Origin: Methanococcoides methylutens
GTDB lineage: Archaea > Halobacteriota > Methanosarcinia > Methanosarcinales > Methanosarcinaceae
Assembly (NCBI RefSeq): GCF_000765475.1
Contig: NZ_JRHO01000014.1
Location: 1 to 61,573, forward strand
Direction of reading: 5' to 3'
Length of the DNA stretch: 61,573 bases
Within the stretch, counting starts at the first letter, position 1. Every line of letters begins with the position of its first letter. Both the position numbers and the translations under genes were made by a program. Below are positions 2,163 through 37,013 of the stretch, piece after piece. The notes under the pieces are model-generated. The model saw nothing but the letters and a program-made list of their open reading frames with translations. It did no database searches and was not told the origin of the DNA.

Positions 2163-5100
2163 TTGCCATCCACCAACCTTAACGATAACCAGCAAAAAGC
2201 AGTCACTTACACCAACGGTCCACTTCTTATCCTCGCAGGTCCCGGCTCAGGAAAGACATTCACCATCACAGAGAAAGTGGTCGATCTTACCGAAAAATCC
2301 CTCCTTCCTGAAAAGATACTGGCACTCACATTCTCAGAAAAAGCAGCCGGAGAGATGCAGGAAAGGATCGAGAACAAGATAGGTGTTGGAAGCGGCATCA
2401 CAGTTTCCACATTCCACTCATTCTGCAATGACCTGATACGTGAGTTCTCCCTTTACCTTGGCATAAACCAGAATGCAAAACTGATTTCAAAGGAACACTC
2501 CCACGTCTGGGGGATCAAGAACATCGACTCATTCGATTTCCAGAACCTGGCAATCCCGACACAACCATACGACCTCATCACAAGCCTGCTGGAAGGCGTC
2601 TCCCAGCTGAAGGACCACCTGATCCCACCAAAGGAACTGGCTGAATATGCAGGCAGGAAGCTGGAAGATGCCAGCATTGACGAAGGTGAAAGGGATGTCC
2701 TGCTGAAGCTGAGCGACCTTGCAAGGTTCTATGAGCATTACCAGCAGTACAAGAGTGACAACGGGTTCCTTGACTACGATGACATGATCTCCATGGCCTG
2801 CAACCTCCTTGAGACGAACGATGTTGTCAGGAACATGGTGAAGGCCAGATATGACTATGTGCTCGTGGACGAGTTCCAGGACACCAATTTTGCACAACTG
2901 TTCCTGGTTCACATGATAGCGGATGGCAATAACCTGACCTGTGTGGCTGACGATGACCAGTGTATCTACCGTTTCAGGGGAGCATATCTTGCCAACATCG
3001 AGCAATTGCAGGAATACTACCATTCCCTTGAGAAGATCCCGCTTGAGAAGAACTACAGGTCAAGCTCACAGATCGTATAGCTGTCCCAGCAGCTCATTGC
3101 GAACAACCCGCAGAGGCAGGAAAAGAACCTCACGGCCCACAATGGTGAGAAGAGCGAGGTGAAGGTTGTCAAAGCACCTGATGATGTGAGCGAGGCAGAG
3201 TGGGTCGCTGAAGAGATCACGAACACGATCAATGAAGGCGTTCGCCCAGGGGAGATCTTCATACTTACCCGAAAAAGGGCTGACGGAAAGAAGTTCAGCG
3301 AATCATTGAAGCAGAGGATGGTGCCGGTGGAATTCGTAGGCAGCCTCCAGCTGAACCGTTTCCCGGTGGTGAGGGAAGCGATGGCATACCTCCACGTGGT
3401 GGCTGATCCGTTCAACAACGGGATCGCCTTTGCAAAGATACTGTCAAGGGAAGGAGTGAGCGAGCACAACCTGCAGAAGATCAACCTTCAGGCATTGAAG
3501 ATCAGCAGAGATGACAGCGATACAGGGGACGGGATATATTCCGTGCTGCTCTACCAGCTTGATGAAATTGACATCGGCCAGAAGGACCTGATCAGGTCCA
3601 TCGTGTCCCGGCTCAATGAGCTGATCGAATACAAGAAGATCCACCTGCCATCGGATACTGTGAAGCACCTGCTGTCCGAGAAGACCGATTTCTACAGGAC
3701 ACAGCTGCAGGAGGATACACAGGCATCCAGAAGGAACATTTCCATCCTGAACTCCCTTGTGACCACTGTGGAAGACCTTGAACTTGTTGATGGCGGCAGT
3801 GAACTGGAGACCGTGGTCGAGGACCTGGAGCTGGTCTTCGGCCTAGACCTGGACGAGGGAGTGTCCAGTGATGAGGATACTGTCAAGGTGATGACGATCC
3901 ACCAGTCCAAGGGCAAGGAAGCGAAGGTGGTGTTCGTCTGCGACATGGCCACCAGACACCTTCCTCTGAACTACAGGAGAAAGGCCTTCACCGTGCCAAA
4001 GGAGCTATCAAAGGGCCGCCAGAGGGATGTGGACGAGAAGGTGCTGCACCTTGAGGAGGAAAGAAGGCTGGCCTATGTTGCCATGACAAGGGCAAAGGAA
4101 GAGCTTTACCTGGTGTTCCCTGAAAAATATGAAGGCAACAAACGGAAGGTCTCCCCCAGCGAGTTCCTCACACAACTTGAGTACACGTCAAATCCGCTGG
4201 TCGGGTATATCGAAGCAGAGCAGTTCGAAAGGAAGAGCGAGGTGGAGGACGTCTCACCCCTGATGAAGAAAAAAGACGAGTACCTCTGGATGCTCGGCAT
4301 GTATTCAAAGCAGGGACAGTTAAAGCAGGCCCTGGAATCCCTTGTGGTCCTCGCCCAGCTCAGGGAGATCGAGGCCGAAGGCAACCTGTCCGCTTTTGAT
4401 GCAAAGGATTTCCTGCAGGTCAACCCTAAGCAACCTCAGGAGCTGGAGGACCTGATCGACAACAAAATCCCGCCCCTTGTGGACCCGAACATGAGATTCT
4501 CGGCTTCAAAGATAAAGACATACCAGGACTGCCCGCTGAAATTCAAGTACGGGACAGTCCTCAACATTCCCACTCCGCAGAAGACCTATTTCCAGGTCGG
4601 TACAGATGTCCACTCCGTCTACGAACAACTGTCCCGAATGGACATGAAGGGAGAATCCATTGATATCTCCACAGCCAACCAGCTGCTGGATGACATCTGG
4701 GACCCTGCTGCCTACCCTTCCAGGACCCAGGAACAACAGGAACACGGCAAGATGAAGCAGATGATGGACTTCTGGTTCCGCTTTGAGGCCGACAATCCCA
4801 ACGAGACCGTTGCAGTGGAAGAATTCTTCGACCTTGACCTGAACGGTGCCCATTTCGGAGGGGTCATCGATAGAATAGACCGGACCCCGACAGGCGAATA
4901 CATCGTCATCGACTACAAGACCGGCAAGACCACCCTCTCAAAGAACAAGATGAAGGACGATGTCCAGCTGGCCCTCTATTGCCTGGCCGTGAAGGAGATG
5001 TACGGCAAGCTCCCGGTACAAGCCGGATTGCTTTATGTCAACCCCGAGGTCCAGGAGCTTCGTATGATGAATGTCGATGAGGAGAGGATTAGTGTTGTGG

Positions 5101-5219
5101 TTGATGGGATCAATGCTGTGGTTGCAAGGGTTTTAAAGGATGACTTTGAGGTTGAAGGGGAGCCGAATTGTTATTTCTGTGATTTTAAGGGGATCTGTGA
5201 GTGGAGGGAGGGGGAGTGA
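2163..5219 (+). CDS. UvrD/PcrA-like superfamily I helicase fused to RecB-type nuclease, with in-frame UAG
   Basis: One 1018-codon gene interrupted by a TAG at 3078-3080 (codon 306); the frame is identical on both sides. The N-terminal part has Q motif, Walker A (AGPGSGKT, residues 25-32), Walker B/motif II (VDEFQDT) and motif III (DDDQCIYRFRGA). The TAG follows motif IV (NYRSSSQIV) at a place where PcrA/UvrD homologues often have Gln or another polar residue. The rest holds motifs V/VI (TIHQSKGKEAKVVF, YVAMTRAKEELY). From about residue 779 there is a PD-(D/E)XK nuclease (GVIDRIDR, VIDYKTGK). Cysteines at QDCPLKF and NCYFCDFKGIC suggest an AddB/Cas4-like Fe-S cluster. The role is probably DNA break processing. 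The start is TTG at 2163 with GGGG upstream; a start-codon shift is possible. Under the standard code it would be called a pseudogene or two genes (2163-3080 and 3159-5219). Confidence 0.85.
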
Positions 5220-12635: not shown

Positions 12636-14588
12636 TTATTCACTGATGATCTCGTCATCAACTGGTATCGTAAAAGTGAACTTGCTGCCTTTTCCAACTT
12701 CGCTTTCAACCCGGACATTCCCGCCATGCATTTCCACAAACTTCTTAACAAGAGCAAGACCAAGCCCTGTACCACCATATTCACTTGAAGTTGAGGAATC
12801 CACCTGAATGAAAGGATAGAACAATTTACCCCGGTCTTTTTGTGAGATGCCTACGCCAGTATCTTCTACAAAAATAGAAATTAACTTGTCAGACCTTTCC
12901 ACCCCTATTGTCACAGAACCACCCTGATCGGTGAACTTGATCGCATTGCTTACAAGATTATAGAGTATCTGCTTGAGCTTCAATGGATCTGCCACTATAG
13001 AAAAATCTTCCATGTTAATGCTGTATTTCAGTTCAATATTCTTCTTTTTTGCAAGAGGCATCATGGTCGACGTTATCCCATTGATGATAGCAAGAATGGC
13101 AAATTTTTCAGGGAAAAGCTCCATCTTACCAGCTTCGATCTTTGAAATATCAAGAAGATCATTGACTATTTCTAAAAGATGTTTGCCGTTTTTAATAACA
13201 TTTGACAGATATTTTTTTTGGATGTCACTTAAAGTACCAAAATTCTCATTGTACAGAACATCCGAGAACCCTATGATCGAATTGAGAGGAGTCCTCAGCT
13301 CATGATTCATATTTGCTATAAATTCGGTCTTGGCCCGATTGGCATTTTCAGCAGCGATCTTTGCAGCTATAAGCATATCTTCAGCATTTTTGCATTCAAG
13401 ACCTGCACCTATGATCTGAGAAACCATATTAAGAATATCGAGATCTTCTTTTGTCCACTCCCCGGCATTTAGGACATCATCAAGACCAAGGTAACCTATC
13501 AATTGATTATTCATATACAAAGGCAAAACTATCAGAGATCTTATATCCTACATTTCAAGGATCTCTTTCTCTGCAGACGCCTCTTCTGTCAAAGTTGAAA
13601 CATCTGTAATGTGGATCAACTCGTCTTTATGGAGTTTGTCCATCCACCAGGGAAACATACTTACCGGAAGATCCTGAAGGCTGTCCTTTTGTGGAGTAAC
13701 ACCCACAGGACAGTATTCATGAGTATTATTCATCCATTCCCCGTCATTACTGAATCTAAAAATGTAACTTCTGCTGCACCCACATAATTCACAGATCTTT
13801 TGAAGAGCTACATTAATAGTATCATCAATATTTTTAGGAGATACGAACATGGAAGAAATAGAAGATATAGTTCTTTGAATTTCGAGCTTTCGTTCGATAA
13901 GCAGGTTTGCTTTTTTGATCTCAGTAATATCCACAAAAGAAGCCATCATGCAAATCGGATCCCCTAGCTCATTAGATATAACGTTAGCTGATAAATTTAC
14001 TGAAAAATCAGTACCATCTTTTTTTCTGGCAAGTAATTCTCCAGTCCAGCTACCTTCAGAGAATAATTCGTTTTTTGCTTGTTTTGCTATGCTTTTATCC
14101 TACCACAATTCTACAGGAGTTCTTCCAAGAATCTCTTTTTCGTCATCATAACCCCACAATTCAAGAAAAGAAGGATTAACATAGGTAAGATTCCCTTCAG
14201 GATCAGCAAGAAAAATAGCATTGATCGATGAATCGATAGCCTTCTCTTTTACTAAAAGATCTTTTTCTGCGTCCTTAAGATTTGAAATATCTATAAAGCT
14301 CTCGATAAAATATAGATCGTCACCCTTCTCAAACTTCTTGACCGTTTTCAAAATTGGAATTGGTTCACCCTTATAATTTAAAACTACACATTCAGATCGG
14401 TCTAAAATTTGTCCAGGGTGAGCAACAGGACATTGACTGGCCTCAGCGGGGCAGATATATTTATGACACACGTTACCAATGATCTCTTCTTTTGGCAGTC
14501 CGATCATGTTTGCAGCTGTTTCGTTCGCATCAACTATAACATGATCTTTACTATCAATGATCACAACACCCGAGATAATTGAATCCAA
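12636..14588 (-). CDS. PAS-PAS-GAF histidine kinase with two in-frame UAG codons
   Basis: A ~650-codon kinase in one frame with TAG at 14100-14102 (codon 163) and 13548-13550 (codon 347). Order: PAS with a Cys-containing insert ([20 protein letters not shown]); a second PAS ([19 protein letters not shown] ... [18 protein letters not shown]) ending [13 protein letters not shown]; a GAF domain ([13 protein letters not shown] ... [19 protein letters not shown]); HisKA ([18 protein letters not shown]) and HATPase ([27 protein letters not shown]). In GAF domains the residue before IRS is very often Gln, so CAG-to-TAG is likely. The start is unclear: TTG at 14588, or an ATA at 14619-14621 which is correctly spaced behind GGGGGA, where the tandem paralogue has ATG. 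The standard code would split it into three fragments. Confidence 0.82.
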
Positions 14589-14621
14589 AATAATATCAAC
14601 TATTTTTTCTTCATTGTGTAT

Positions 14622-14984
14622 CGTTTATCCCCCTATTTTGTGAGTACATTATGATGATGACTCTATTGAATATACCATTAATTACTATAAACTTTGCCAT
14701 TAAATTTTATGATAAAATAGAAAAATAGTAATTTTATTACAGAACCTATGCTAGTCATATTAAGTATAGATCGATTTACAATTGAAATTTGTTGATCTAC
14801 TAAAAAATATATTGTCCGGATGAACTGAAGATCATCTTTTGACGATTAATCCATTTAATTCAGTGATCAAACATGTTATGCATCTGATTCCCGTCATTAC
14901 CTGACCCAAAAATAGAACTCCGGCTATATTATTTCATATATAGCAGACGATATCAAGAACTATATTATGAACTCATCAATACTT
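14622..14984. other. AT-rich spacer between kinase and its decayed paralogue
   Basis: About 360 bases upstream of the kinase. It is rich in A/T, with no coding frame of note and no clear inverted repeat. It should hold the kinase promoter. Confidence 0.35.
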
Positions 14985-15670
14985 TTTAATAGATGTGACC
15001 AGAAAAGAAAGCGAAACTATGCTCATTCCAGTTTCAAGCCTTTACTTGATGCCCAGGTTTGCCTCATCAATATTGGTGACACACAAAAAAGAAACCATCA
15101 GACAAACCGGATCTCCAACATCATCCTTAATTAGATGTGATGATAAATATATTGTAAATTTGCACTGTTTCGTTCAAGAACCTCATTTTTATCATCATAG
15201 CCCCATGATCAAGGAAGGAAGAGTTAACATAGGTCAGGCACCCTTCAAGATCTGCCATTGCAATAGCATTAATTGAAGAATCAATTACCTTTTTTTATTA
15301 AAATTTCCTCTTTTTCTTCTTTAAGGCTTGAAACGTCTATAAAGCTCTCGATCAGGTACATATGACCATCCTTCTCTACCTTCTTGACCCTTTTCAGAAT
15401 AGGAACTGATTCGCCCTTATAATTCAGAAGAATGCGTTCAGATTGATCTATAAGTTGACCCGGATGAGATACAGGGCAATGTCCGATCTCAGTAGGACAA
15501 ATATATTTGTGACATACTTTACCAATGAGATCTTCCTTTGGAATTCCGATCATCTTAGTAGCTGTCTCATTAATATCAACTATAACATGATCTTTGCCAT
15601 CAATAACAACTACAGCCGAGATAATAGAATCCAAAACAATGTCAATATAATCTTCTTTCTTACTTATCAT
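14985..15670 (-). pseudogene. Decayed tandem copy of the PAS histidine kinase
   Basis: From ATG 15670 (GGGGAG five bases upstream) the frame encodes about 125 residues closely matching the N-terminus of the kinase at 12.6-14.6 kb: [53 protein letters not shown]. It fails at a poly-A/T run near 15290. Beyond it, homology continues in shifted frames ([25 protein letters not shown], then DDVGDPVCLMVSF) to about 14990, after which nothing remains of GAF, HisKA or HATPase. It is therefore a truncated, frameshifted paralogue in the same orientation, the remains of a tandem duplication. A short PAS-only protein could still be made from the first part. Confidence 0.75.
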
Positions 15671-15871
15671 TCCCACTCCCCAGCAGTACTAGATGATTGT
15701 AATTATAACTATAATTATTATAAGATTAATTTTTTATTTATATTATAAAAATGTTTGTAAAAAATATAGCTGTTTCGGAAAATACGGTTTATATGCAGTT
15801 ACGTTTATGTCAGAATAGCTATATACTGAGAATATAGAATTCTTGAAATTAATTTGAGAGCCTGCCACTCA

Positions 15872-30962: not shown

Positions 30963-33900
30963 TTATCTCATCTGTTCATCTTCTTCATCCTTCCTCCTCT
31001 TCCAGAGGACGAAGAAGAAAATTCCCAGAATTCCTGCGATCACAGGAAGCAGCCACATTGAACTTGTAACTCTTTCTTCTGTAGAATCACCTAAATGTCC
31101 GCTGTAGGTTGTGGTGTCAACATCCTCACTTTCCACAGGGAACATTGCATCCATACCAAATGGGAGCGCTCCTACTGCGAACTCTGAGAATCCCGGAGTC
31201 CTCACTGTGAAGAAATAATAGTCTTCATCCACTGAAGAGGAAACAACTTCAAGCACTTCCCATTCAACAGACTCAGCGCCGCAGTGAGTCACAGTTGTGG
31301 TGGTTGGATCAAGTTCATTCTGCTCATACCATGCTACAGGAACACGGATGTGGATCAGTGCACTTTCCGTACTTCCCGGACTACTGGTGTCAATATTGAT
31401 GTATCCATAGACACAAGCTCCATTGCCTACTGCAAATGATATGTCAGCAGGTTCTTCCTAAGAGGATGATGAGCTCTGAGTGATGGTCACATCCATGTCA
31501 TCGACATCCCTACCCAGATTAATGTCCACACCGGTGACCATACATCCGGCATTCCTGAGCTGTTCAAGTGTATCGATTTCAACGGTATCTCCTGACATAA
31601 CATGTCCCACATCAAACTCCCCGGAAGCCTCAAGTGCTGAGCAGGCAGCTTCATTTTCCTGCTTTTCCTTCAGATCCTGGAAGTAGTAGTAGTTTGGAAG
31701 ACCGTCGTCATCAGATGATCCACCCACAGTGCTTGTCTTAACAGTTGTGAAGTTACTGATCAGGGAAGAGTTGTTGAAACCAAAGATGTCGTAGCTGACT
31801 ACCTTATAGTAGTACAGTGTTTCATCCTGAAGTCCGGTTAGCATGATACTGTGATCTGTTCCAAATACTGCTTTTGAAATATTCATAGAGACATTTGAAT
31901 CGAGACCATAGTATACCGTGGAATTGGCAGCTTCATTCGTCTTCCAGGAAATGGTAGCTGACCTGTCTGTCACCTGTGATGCAGTCACATTGGTTATTTC
32001 CATATCGATTGCATCAATACCATAGGCAATAGGACCGATCGGAACAATATTACCTCCAAGATCCTCAATAGTCGCATTCAGATAATACATTCCGGATGGC
32101 AGTGATGTGAAGTTCACAGAAAGACTGCCGGGGTATGATGTGGAATTGAACAATCCTGTACTGTTGTAAAGGTAGATCGTAACATTCCTTATGCCCATAT
32201 TATCAGATGCTGTTACATTGGCAAATACCCAGTCCTGACTGAAATTACCTGAAGGTAGCACATCATCATTGAATACAATTACCGGATCGGTCGTATCAAG
32301 CAGGATAGATCTTGTTTCAGTTTCATTGGTGTTACCGGCATAGTCCCAGACACTTGCGTTCAGCTGGTAGTAACCATCAGCAAGACCGCTGAAAGTAACG
32401 GAATAAGTTGGATCCGAGCTTATGCTGGAATCAACAACTCCACTGCTGTTGTACAGGTAGATTCCGGAAGCGTTCAGCCACATGTCACTCACACTTATGT
32501 TACCAACAATGTAGCTCTGGCTGAAATTGCCCTCATCAGTTGTCTCATCATTGAAATCGATCGCAGGTTTAACAGTATCCAGTGTGATCTCCAGAGTAGA
32601 GGTAGTGTTGGTGTTACCTGCAAGATCAACTACGGTTGCATTCAGGTAATAGACACCATCAGCAAGACCTGTGAATTCGTTGGAAAGGTTACCATTACCT
32701 TCGGTTGTACTGGAATCCACAAGTGAACTCTCATTGTACAGGGATATTGTAAGGCTGGAATAGCCGAAAACATCGAAGGATGTAACGTTAGCAAAGATAC
32801 TGGTCTGGCTGAAGTTACCTTCAGCAGTTGTATCCTCGTTGAATACAATTACCGGATCGGTCGTATCAAGCAGGATAGCTCTTGTTTCTGTATACTTGAT
32901 ATTGCCTGCAATATCCCATGCACTTGCGTTCAACTGGTAGTAACCATCTGCTAGTGATGTGAAGTTTACGGAATGTGTTAGATCAGAACTGATGCTTGAA
33001 TCTTTAAGACCCGTCTCGTTGTAGAGATAGATAGCAGAAGCATTAAGTGAAACGTCACTCACGCTTATGTTACCAACGATATAGTTCTGGCTGAAATTGC
33101 CTTCATCGGTTGTCTCATCATTGAAATCGATGAACGGAGCATTGTTGTCTATTGTTACATCAATAACATCGATTGCACAGAACTTTTCAGCTGATTCGTT
33201 CTCGCATGCTTCCCAGATAATATTGTAGCTGCCATCTGCAAACTGAGTGCTGTCAATATCAACAGAGAGGTTGTTCTGGAAGAGACCTTCATAAGAGAGA
33301 ACATTTCCTGTAATGTTGCTCAGGCTTACATTGGACAGAAATGCATCCCCGTTGTTGTCAGTAACAGATGCATTGACATAGAAAGTACCAGAAATATTGG
33401 CATCCGGTTCAGGTGCAATTATAGCCACATGTGGTGCTGTATTAATAGAAGTTATATCGAATTCACTTATCTCAAACCCGGCAAGTACCTCATCGATCTG
33501 AACAAGCTCTTCACCATCTTCCACAGTTACCCACAGGTTGAAATCATATGTTACACCCGGTGTCAGATCATCAGTAGTGTAATAGATGAACGCATTACCG
33601 ATATCATCGTTTGACATCAGGAATCTCTCCTTCTTGGAGTAACAATCCGGTACCTGAGTACAGTTGATGAAATATGTCGGTGTCTGAGAGCCGGAAGCTG
33701 AACTGAAAGAGCTGGTCATTGCAAGGAAATAACCGGTACCGTTATAGACGGTCATGCTTTCGGTTGCAAGCAGATGTGTTCCAGGTCCAAGTTTTTTGTT
33801 ACTTGAAGTGTCAGTGGACTCATTGGAAACAGAAAAGCTACTTACCTCATATCCTTCCAGGTCCCCCAGGTCAAAGTCAAGTACCTTTCCAACCACATTG

Positions 33901-36533
33901 GTAGTAGCAGCATCTGCAATATTTCTGGAGAAAAGACTGTAGTTCTTGTTCATTTCTTCATTCCGATCCACGAAAATACCGGAAACAGACCCTGTATCAG
34001 AACCGTCTTCCAGATGCCTTGACCATGATGTGGAAATGTCAACTGAGTTGAGATCCTGGTAATAATACTGCAAGGCTGTTTCCAGATCAGAACTGAGAGA
34101 ATACTTACCTATCACAAATGTACCGGATTCAACACTCTTTTCCACAGACCAATTAAATGCGTCATCAAATGTAGTCGAGGAGTGACTATAGCTCACATCC
34201 GTAAGCTGGTCACGAACCTGGTTTCCTTCTGCCGTAACAAATTTCAGGAGAGTTATGTCAATATCATTGACCTCTACCGCACCATTGCCTGTTCTGTTGA
34301 ACTCATAAGTAATATTATGTGTTCCGGAAGAAGGAATCGTAAAGCTTATAGGTCTTGTTCCTGTTGAACCTTCGTCAATATTTGATTTATCTTTACTGAG
34401 AGACCTCATCTTTTCTTCAAGCACAGGTTCTGGGGCACCATCAACATAGATCCTGACCCATACATCATTATCCAGAGCTCCGGTAAGTTTCACAATGTTC
34501 ATGGTGCTCATAAGGGTAAGGTCAACATTATCCATTGATGTGTTAAACTCAACATTTATACCTTCAACAAAATCAGAACTTGAAAAAGTAAAGTCAGTTT
34601 CATTGAGTGGAACTGCGAAGAGGGAGGTCATTGGGGGTTTTGGAACAAATTCTGCAGGACTGTTCAGGAGGTATGGATAACCATTATTGGTCGTTCCACC
34701 GATAGCCCAGACCGAAGTAAAATCCCATCCAACGAATGTTGATTGCTTTTTCATGTCAGCAGTGTTCCTACCTTCACCACCAGAGCTTGTGGTTTGCCCG
34801 GATGTCACATTATTCCAGTAACTGTTTGTGACAGGTAGTTCAAAATTAGCTCCTACAAGACCACCGACGTTTGAACCAGCACCAGTCACAAAACCAGTGG
34901 AGTAACTCCGATCAACAGATCCTCCTCCAAGATTACCAACAAGACCTCCAGCTCTACTATCAGTCCCTCCACCAGTAACGTTACAGGTGGAATAACTCTG
35001 ATTTATAATACCTCCAACATTCCAACCAACAAAACCCCCAATATCCACAAAACCAATGACGTTACCACCAGAATAACTTAATAAAATATTTCCTTCATTA
35101 TAAGCTGTAATACCGCCCACATAATAGTCTTCAGAGCTTACATTTCCATTAAAACTACTACTAGTTATGTTACCTGCATTGGCTCCTATAAGTCCACCTG
35201 TATATGTGTATGTACCAGTCACATTACCAATGGCAGAACTTTGGTTTATCTCTCCAATATTTAATCCAGCAAGAGCTCCAGTACAATACTTGCCGGTAAT
35301 ATTTACATTTACTAAACCAATATTCCTAATAACTGCTTCATTAGTTGCCCATCCAAATAATCCAACATAGTCTTCAGTTGGTCTGTAAATGTAAAGATCA
35401 TTTATCTCATATCCATTTCCGTCTAAAGTTCCGCTGAACTGAATACTAGGATCTTCTGAATCATATCCTATTGGATCAAATCCCCCGCCCAACTCAATAG
35501 TTTCACTGGCATCGATATCATTAATCAATGTGTAGTTTGCTGACAGGTCAGTGCTCATATTCTGAAGCTGCTCAACTGTCGAGATCTGATATGGATTCCC
35601 AGCAGAACCGTCTCCGCCTGCAAAAAAACTTACAGGTTCAGAGAATGTCCGGAGGAATGGATAACCATTATTGGTAATTCCGTCTATAGCCCACTCAGAA
35701 GTAAAGTTCCAACCAACATAGGTAGATTGGTCTTCCATCTGAGATGTTGTTTTGCCTGTACCACCACCACTTGTAACTTGACCGGAAGTTTGGGTATCCC
35801 AATAACTATTGGTGACAGTATAATCATTTTCTCCAACAAGGCCACCTAGATAATTATTGCCAGTAACATATCCAGTAGAATAACTTTCATTAATAGTTCC
35901 GTAATCTGGATCAAAATACCGATTATCTCCAGCAAGGCCACCTACATAATCAGAACCAGTAACATTGCTCATGGAATAACTTTGATAAATAGAACCAAAA
36001 TTACTCCCCACAAGACCACCCACAGATAAATCACCACTGATATTGCCTGTAGAATAGCTCTGTGTAACAAAACCATCATTCATTCCAGCAAGACCACCTA
36101 CCTCATAATGACCAGTAATACTCACATCTTCAAGGCCAATATTTTTGACCACTGCAACAGAATCCACATATCCAAAAAGACCAACATCATCTGTGGTTGG
36201 TCTATTGATGTAAAGACCAGTGATAACAAAACCATCACCATCAAAAGTGCCTGTGAATTGATTATCCAAATCACCGATAGGAGTGAAGCCTGCGTTACCA
36301 TTCCAGCCACTGGTGACACTGGCATCGATATCATTGATCAATATATAGTTTGCTGACAGGTCAGTGCTCATATCCTGAAGCTGCTCTACTGTCGAGATCT
36401 GATATGGATCCGCGACAGTACCGTCTCCACCTGCAAATGTGGCTGCACTCGCAGGAGATGAGATCATCATACCGATTAATATCAGCAATAAACTAAGAAA
36501 AAGTGTATTATTCGATCTTTTTATAAATATCAT
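30963..36533 (-). CDS. Giant cell-surface protein: GLUG repeats, Ig-like repeats, FN3, PGF-pre-PGF; one in-frame UAG
   Basis: An 1856-codon gene with TAG at 31458-31460 (codon 1692) and TAA at 30963. A signal peptide (cleavage after SPASA) leads into two GLUG-type blocks, each opening AGGDG ... PYQISTVEQLQ and carrying repeats like VGGLVG-N-SYSTG-VTG. A ~400-residue middle domain follows, then four Ig-like repeats with T-EGNFSQ, then a fibronectin III-like domain (ATISWKTNEAANSTVYYG). The tail before the TAG has VDINLGRDVDDMDVTI; after it, EEPADISFAVGNGACVYGY and VRTPGFSEFAVGA complete a PGF-pre-PGF domain. A membrane helix (LLPVIAGILGIFFFVLW) and RRKDEEDEQ end it. The complete C-terminal domain straddles the TAG, so readthrough is needed for anchoring. 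Probably an S-layer-associated adhesin. Confidence 0.85.
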
Positions 36534-37013
36534 TATATCAACCTAAATTTTATAAATATATATTATTAAATAATTAATAGAGTTTTATATAAATCGTTTA
36601 CATGCTATATATATACATAACTATCAAGCGAATTTGAAATTAAAAGATCAATAGTTTTGATTTAAAAGTAAAAACATTTAGATAACATAATTGAAATGTT
36701 TTTAAATCTACATACATTATATTCCTGAAATAGATAATTATAATAGCAACAAAAAAGCACAACAGAAATACTACCGACGAAATCATCGCTGGAAAAGACT
36801 TAGAGGATCAACGTGCTTTACTGTTGCAGGCTCTTTTTTCTTATCATTCGACATAATTAGATACTATTCTTGAACGTAAATCTCTATATTAAAAATAATC
36901 CGGTAAAGATGGCATTTGGAAGATCAGGAAAGAACATAGAGAGGTCATTTTCAAACCCATTGCAAAAAATATAATAACTAACGATGCAACTTTAATAAGT
37001 GGGGAAAGGGCTC
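36534..37013. other. AT-rich intergenic region
   Basis: About 480 bases between the divergent surface-protein and MBL genes. It is very AT-rich at 36541-36760, with TATA-like blocks (for example TATATATAC near 36606-36614) that could serve either gene. I see no coding frame, CRISPR or clear RNA fold. Confidence 0.4.

Follow-up and report, generated by a model that had tools for sequence, protein, structure and literature searches.

As shown in Table 1, a histidine kinase gene with two in-frame TAG codons lies on the minus strand of the window, which comprises positions 1 to 61,573 of a 1.0 Mb contig of Methanococcoides methylutens (genome 2.5 Mb, 15 contigs, 99.87% complete). The translated frame ends at a TAA stop codon (12636-12638) and is open up to position 14624. 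Counted from the ACG triplet at its 5′ end, the first UAG is codon 175. The two TAG codons are the sole interruptions; no TAA, TGA, or frameshift was found inside the 662-codon frame. In the read-through product, the PAS, GAF, HisKA, and HATPase_c domains all exceed the Pfam cut-offs. The TAG-bearing copy retains the H-box of HisKA and the N and G boxes of HATPase_c, as a sensor histidine kinase should. The original prediction of two TAG codons in an otherwise unbroken PAS-PAS-GAF-HisKA-HATPase frame was thus borne out by translation, Pfam, and the orthologues.

Table 1. Features of the kinase locus (window coordinates) and of the related kinase clade
Feature	Position	Strand	Description	Basis
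Histidine kinase gene PAS-PAS-GAF-HisKA-HATPase_c	12636..14624	-	662 codons, ACG 14622-14624 to TAA	Translation, orthologue alignment, Pfam
HATPase_c domain	12657..12989	-	G boxes DTGVGIS and GGTGLGL intact	Pfam, alignment
HisKA phospho-acceptor domain	13128..13334	-	H-box NHELRTP intact	Pfam, alignment
GAF domain	13404..13829	-		Pfam
Second in-frame TAG	13548..13550	-	GAF domain, context EM-TAG-DIRSL	CAG (Gln) in 5/5 orthologues
Second PAS domain (PAS_9)	13920..14222	-		Pfam
First in-frame TAG	14100..14102	-	Second PAS domain, context ELW-TAG-D	CAG (Gln) in 5/5 orthologues
Possible initiation region GGGGGA-TAA-ACG-ATA	14619..14633	-	ACG conserved in all six orthologues	Aligns with paralogue ATG
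AAAGTTTATA-type element	14677..14693	-	Possible archaeal TATA box (candidate)	Conserved upstream in orthologues
Kinase clade loci, this genome	C2:76297-78915, C2:93063-94148		L155, L089	
Kinase clade loci, further members			L156-L165, L174	

Intact orthologues without internal stop codons were found in five congeners, with identities of 91, 86, 77 (Methanococcoides vulcani), 70, and 70%. All five have CAG (Gln) at both TAG positions. Two C-to-T changes on the terminal branch leading to this species thus gave rise to the TAG codons. No indels relative to the five orthologues were found in the shared region, and the mixture of stop codons, frameshifts, and deletions typical of a pseudogene is absent. 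It had been proposed that the second UAG sits where GAF domains typically have Gln, and this is a fair description of these relatives: 10 of the 16 homologous segments compared have Gln at the site.

Selection was assessed with a codon model on a six-species tree of the kinase orthologues. The overall omega was 0.21. The TAG-bearing branch, with an omega of 0.25-0.29, does not differ from the background of about 0.2, and omega = 1 was rejected for it (lnL -6915.2 versus -6924.2, 9 lnL units). Omega = 1 was also rejected for the sequence downstream of the first TAG (omega 0.236, p = 6e-5) and downstream of the second TAG (omega 0.247, p = 0.0009). When the terminal branches of this species and its nearest relative were taken jointly, a mild relaxation was seen (0.34 versus 0.20), mostly from the intact relative. 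The signal on the TAG-bearing branch may predate the TAG codons, at least for much of the branch. The dN/dS comparison across relatives that the original prediction had suggested therefore gave values well below 1, both on the branch and 3′ of both TAG codons, and not the value near 1 of a pseudogene.

The 5′ end of the gene is unusual. The tandem paralogue (at about 15.67 kb) begins with ATG ATA AGT AAG, while the kinase has ACG ATA CAC AAT. The paralogue ATG pairs with the kinase ACG, and ATA (14619-14621) is the next codon in both genes. The proposed ATA start opposite the paralogue ATG is thus off by one codon. An ATA start is not supported by this alignment, since ATA does not lie at the start position of the paralogue; ACG is favoured over ATA as the candidate start position. 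No in-frame ATG, GTG, or TTG was found in the kinase frame upstream of the TTG at 14588, and three of the six orthologues have in-frame ATG codons further upstream. ACG ATA, preceded by a TAA, also occurs in the intact orthologues of two congeners (G001 and G005). Thus, the odd start has nothing to do with the TAG codons. Two of the intact orthologues have no usual in-frame start further up. ACG ATA after the purine-rich stretch is a possible non-AUG start. Initiation at an out-of-frame ATG just downstream, followed by -1 slippage on a run of six A residues, was set aside; it would be feasible in three species and is absent in the other three. The paralogue itself is a remnant (window about 14900-15676, minus strand). 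It had been taken as an example of decay through TAA, TGA, and frameshifts, and this holds after the first 129 codons or so, where in-frame TAA and TGA codons and frame changes occur. The first 129 codons, however, are conserved, with a dN/dS of 0.24 against G001, and the paralogue is therefore unfit as a neutral control. It is possibly a retained single-PAS protein.

The genome encodes the machinery for pyrrolysine (Pyl). A strong match to PylS was found in this genome and its congeners. The gene for tRNA-Pyl, with the anticodon CTA (CUA), immediately precedes pylS; pylB and pylC come next, and both lie above the cut-off in profile scoring. A reading frame is also present 3′ of pylC. Both tRNA-Pyl(CUA) and PylRS are thus present, as in a host of Pyl proteins. 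A whole-genome tRNA search gave 46 hits, and the anticodon was read for all but one. The sole CUA tRNA among those read is tRNA-Pyl, and tRNA-Gln has only the anticodons TTG and CTG (UUG and CUG). No second amber tRNA was found among the 46 genome-wide hits, one of which, a weak tRNA-like hit (L258), was left unread. Another tRNA, L243, has a loop intron and was assigned as Ser(aga) by the program but looks like Met by eye; judged by eye, neither L243 nor L258 resembles a CUA tRNA. A duplicated release factor was rejected; as in the relatives, there is only one aRF1-like gene and one shorter pelota-like gene, with the roles assigned from length. The pylB gene ends in TAG beside the start of pylC (L051:8458-8460, minus strand), and readthrough would add about 40 residues. 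According to PMC2933860, pylB also ends in TAG in M. burtonii and in two species of Methanosarcina. Such an end might let the reading of UAG feed back on the synthesis of Pyl.

How often does this genome use TAG as a stop codon? Stretches totalling 740 kb of the same contig were set against 780 kb of the nearest relative. The 740 kb contain 498 conserved ORFs, of which 262 end with TGA, 225 with TAA, and only 11 with TAG. Eight of these 11 continue in frame into a conserved protein. Two of the eight are fragments of the kinase studied here; the other six are two methylamine methyltransferase-type genes (a label taken from the sequence around the UAG), a UvrD-like helicase gene, a ResB-like gene, a gene for a PGF-domain surface protein, and a gene with a tail of 24 residues. 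One of the 11 is probably a shadow frame, and two of the 498 ORFs are left as candidate TAG terminators. The lineage-specific stop codons in the middle of genes are TAG, with four strong cases, three of them at Gln codons; two further, weaker ones lie in short ORFs. The strong cases are the helicase (Gln), the kinase twice (Gln and Gln), and the 24-residue-tail gene (a Glu codon in the nearest relative). No convincing mid-gene TAA or TGA was found in the 740 kb in genes that are intact in the nearest relative; the TAA and TGA events recorded fall at the beginning or end of a gene or in regions that align poorly. The nearest relative has some genes broken by TGA, so such decay does exist in the genus. 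UAG is not fully reassigned in the sense that no gene ends with it: it can probably still terminate translation, since pylB ends with TAG and the two other conserved ORFs may do so, while a readthrough extension of these is also conceivable.

Some of these genes lie in the window. The UvrD/PcrA-like helicase gene (2163-5219, plus strand) has its TAG at 3078-3080, in place of a CAA (Gln) codon of the nearest relative, and 15 of the 15 flanking residues are identical on both sides. The gene for the large PGF-domain surface protein (30966-36584, minus strand) has a TAG about 164 codons before its end, in the context SSSSS-TAG-EEPADI, and this TAG is conserved in the nearest relative. Elsewhere in this genome, further TAG codons common to the nearest relative were seen at C14:218124-219134, C14:232665-233483, and C14:100476-101240, in ResB-like, QueG-like, and phosphopantetheinyl-transferase-like genes (names given by eye).

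It was also revealed that another histidine kinase gene of this genome, on contig C2 (76297-78915; Table 1), has one TAG in the HATPase domain; it serves as a positive control for this class of protein. Its clade has 20 members across all 11 Methanococcoides genomes, and every member has exactly one TAG in the aligned region. In the 13 members that were aligned with each other, the TAG occupies the same column, before the G1 box. The G1 box is needed by any kinase. The clade sequence 3′ of the TAG is under selection (dN/dS 0.07-0.20), and no TAG was found in the next-best matches of the clade outside the genus. These results indicate that UAG is compatible with a maintained kinase in Methanococcoides. 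This clade with a fixed UAG is a more surprising lead than the gene studied here, and it makes a role of Pyl outside methyl transfer directly testable. It is doubtful, but conceivable, that Pyl works in the signal transduction of Methanococcoides; the clade would then keep a Pyl in the HATPase domain while other kinases, such as the one studied here, gain one by drift, and the output could track Pyl supply and, through it, methylamine metabolism.

Taken together, the UAG codons of the kinase mRNA are probably read by Pyl-tRNA(CUA); the kinase would then be made in full length, with Pyl replacing the earlier Gln at both sites. The claim that the codons are read and do not reflect decay gains support from the pyl genes with a sole CUA tRNA, the low dN/dS, the scarcity of UAG terminators, and the kinases with a conserved UAG; in the studied gene itself, conserved and selected coding sequence flanks each UAG on both sides. 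Because UAG is almost never a stop codon here and is very probably read as Pyl, an intact gene is likelier than a broken one. Judged from the sequence, the product would be a working kinase. The history was likely a neutral one: nearly all genes would first have moved to UAA or UGA stop codons, after which a CAG-to-UAG transition would have become a tolerable sense change. Such a transition would have occurred twice in the kinase after the split from the nearest relative. With Pyl-tRNA reading UAG, Gln-to-Pyl changes may drift in.

Recent decay of the kinase, with the TAG codons as ordinary nonsense mutations, is quite unlikely. The TAG codons are lineage-specific, the gene has no clear start codon, omega is slightly raised in the two youngest branches, and the genome has many other histidine kinases, all of which would fit decay. 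On the other hand, TAG makes up only about 35% of the one-step nonsense changes expected in the kinase, yet neither TAA, TGA, nor a frameshift accompanies it over 662 codons. The TAG-bearing copy has kept all its catalytic boxes, the odd start is common to intact orthologues, and the TAG-only pattern extends to the rest of the sampled genome. It is unlikely, too, that UAG is read only in part, so that a short PAS-only protein of about 174 residues is made together with some full-length kinase, at a ratio set by Pyl-tRNA and tunable by methylamine metabolism. The TAG end of pylB and the presence of just one aRF1-like protein, apart from the pelota-like protein, leave room for such competition, and in Acetohalobium the growth substrate determines what UAG means (reviewed in PMC8211752). 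Two serial UAG codons would multiply the losses, however, and since neither TAG is conserved in the orthologues, this gene cannot hold a conserved switch.

Reading of UAG as glutamine by tRNA-Gln would leave the protein unchanged. In the relatives, Gln occupies both kinase sites as well as that of the helicase, and UAG is one base from CAG; nevertheless, the tRNA-Gln species found are only CUG and UUG, the sole CUA tRNA among those read is tRNA-Pyl, and a Gln origin is expected anyway from the common C-to-T change. This is a very improbable reading. Sequencing or assembly errors are more improbable still. The two changes are both C-to-T substitutions, and the kinase shows no indels in a nearly complete assembly of few contigs. 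If Pyl is inserted at both codons, as preferred here, the kinase would offer a clean example of Gln-to-Pyl drift that took place twice in a single genus. Standard annotation would split the gene into fragments or label it a pseudogene, and if UAG is nearly a sense codon here, genes throughout the genus need to be called with a Pyl-aware code.

By analogy, the closest precedent is the tRNA-His guanylyltransferase Thg1 of M. acetivorans, whose Pyl was acquired through neutral evolution (Heinemann et al. 2009, according to PMC2933860). Like Thg1, the kinase lies outside methylamine metabolism and has in-frame UAG, specific to its lineage, at sites where an ordinary residue stands in the relatives. 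In contrast to Thg1, in which Pyl was physically observed, the kinase has two UAG codons, and its Pyl is predicted from the sequence. The methyltransferases MtmB, MtbB, and MttB depend on the same decoding machinery, and in-frame UAG of this type occurs in the same genome; however, their Pyl is catalytic and conserved, while Pyl in the kinase would replace Gln in one species only. A sensory histidine kinase is also contained in predicted Pyl cluster 16 (PMC3639795), which is a prediction only. The two cases are alike in that a histidine kinase gene from the Methanosarcinaceae carries an in-frame UAG. Cluster 16 differs in that it comes from M. acetivorans, M. mahii, and M. barkeri, and consists of a gene plus a hypothetical protein, pseudogene, or shadow frame. 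The present species and this kinase gene turned up nowhere in the literature searched. Kivenson and colleagues reportedly proposed in Science in 2025 a code in which all TAG codons mean Pyl in archaea including Methanococcoides burtonii. The present species belongs to the same genus and likewise has almost no UAG terminators, but here pylB and perhaps two more genes still end with TAG. If that proposal holds, the general phenomenon is known, and the kinase is a further instance of it.
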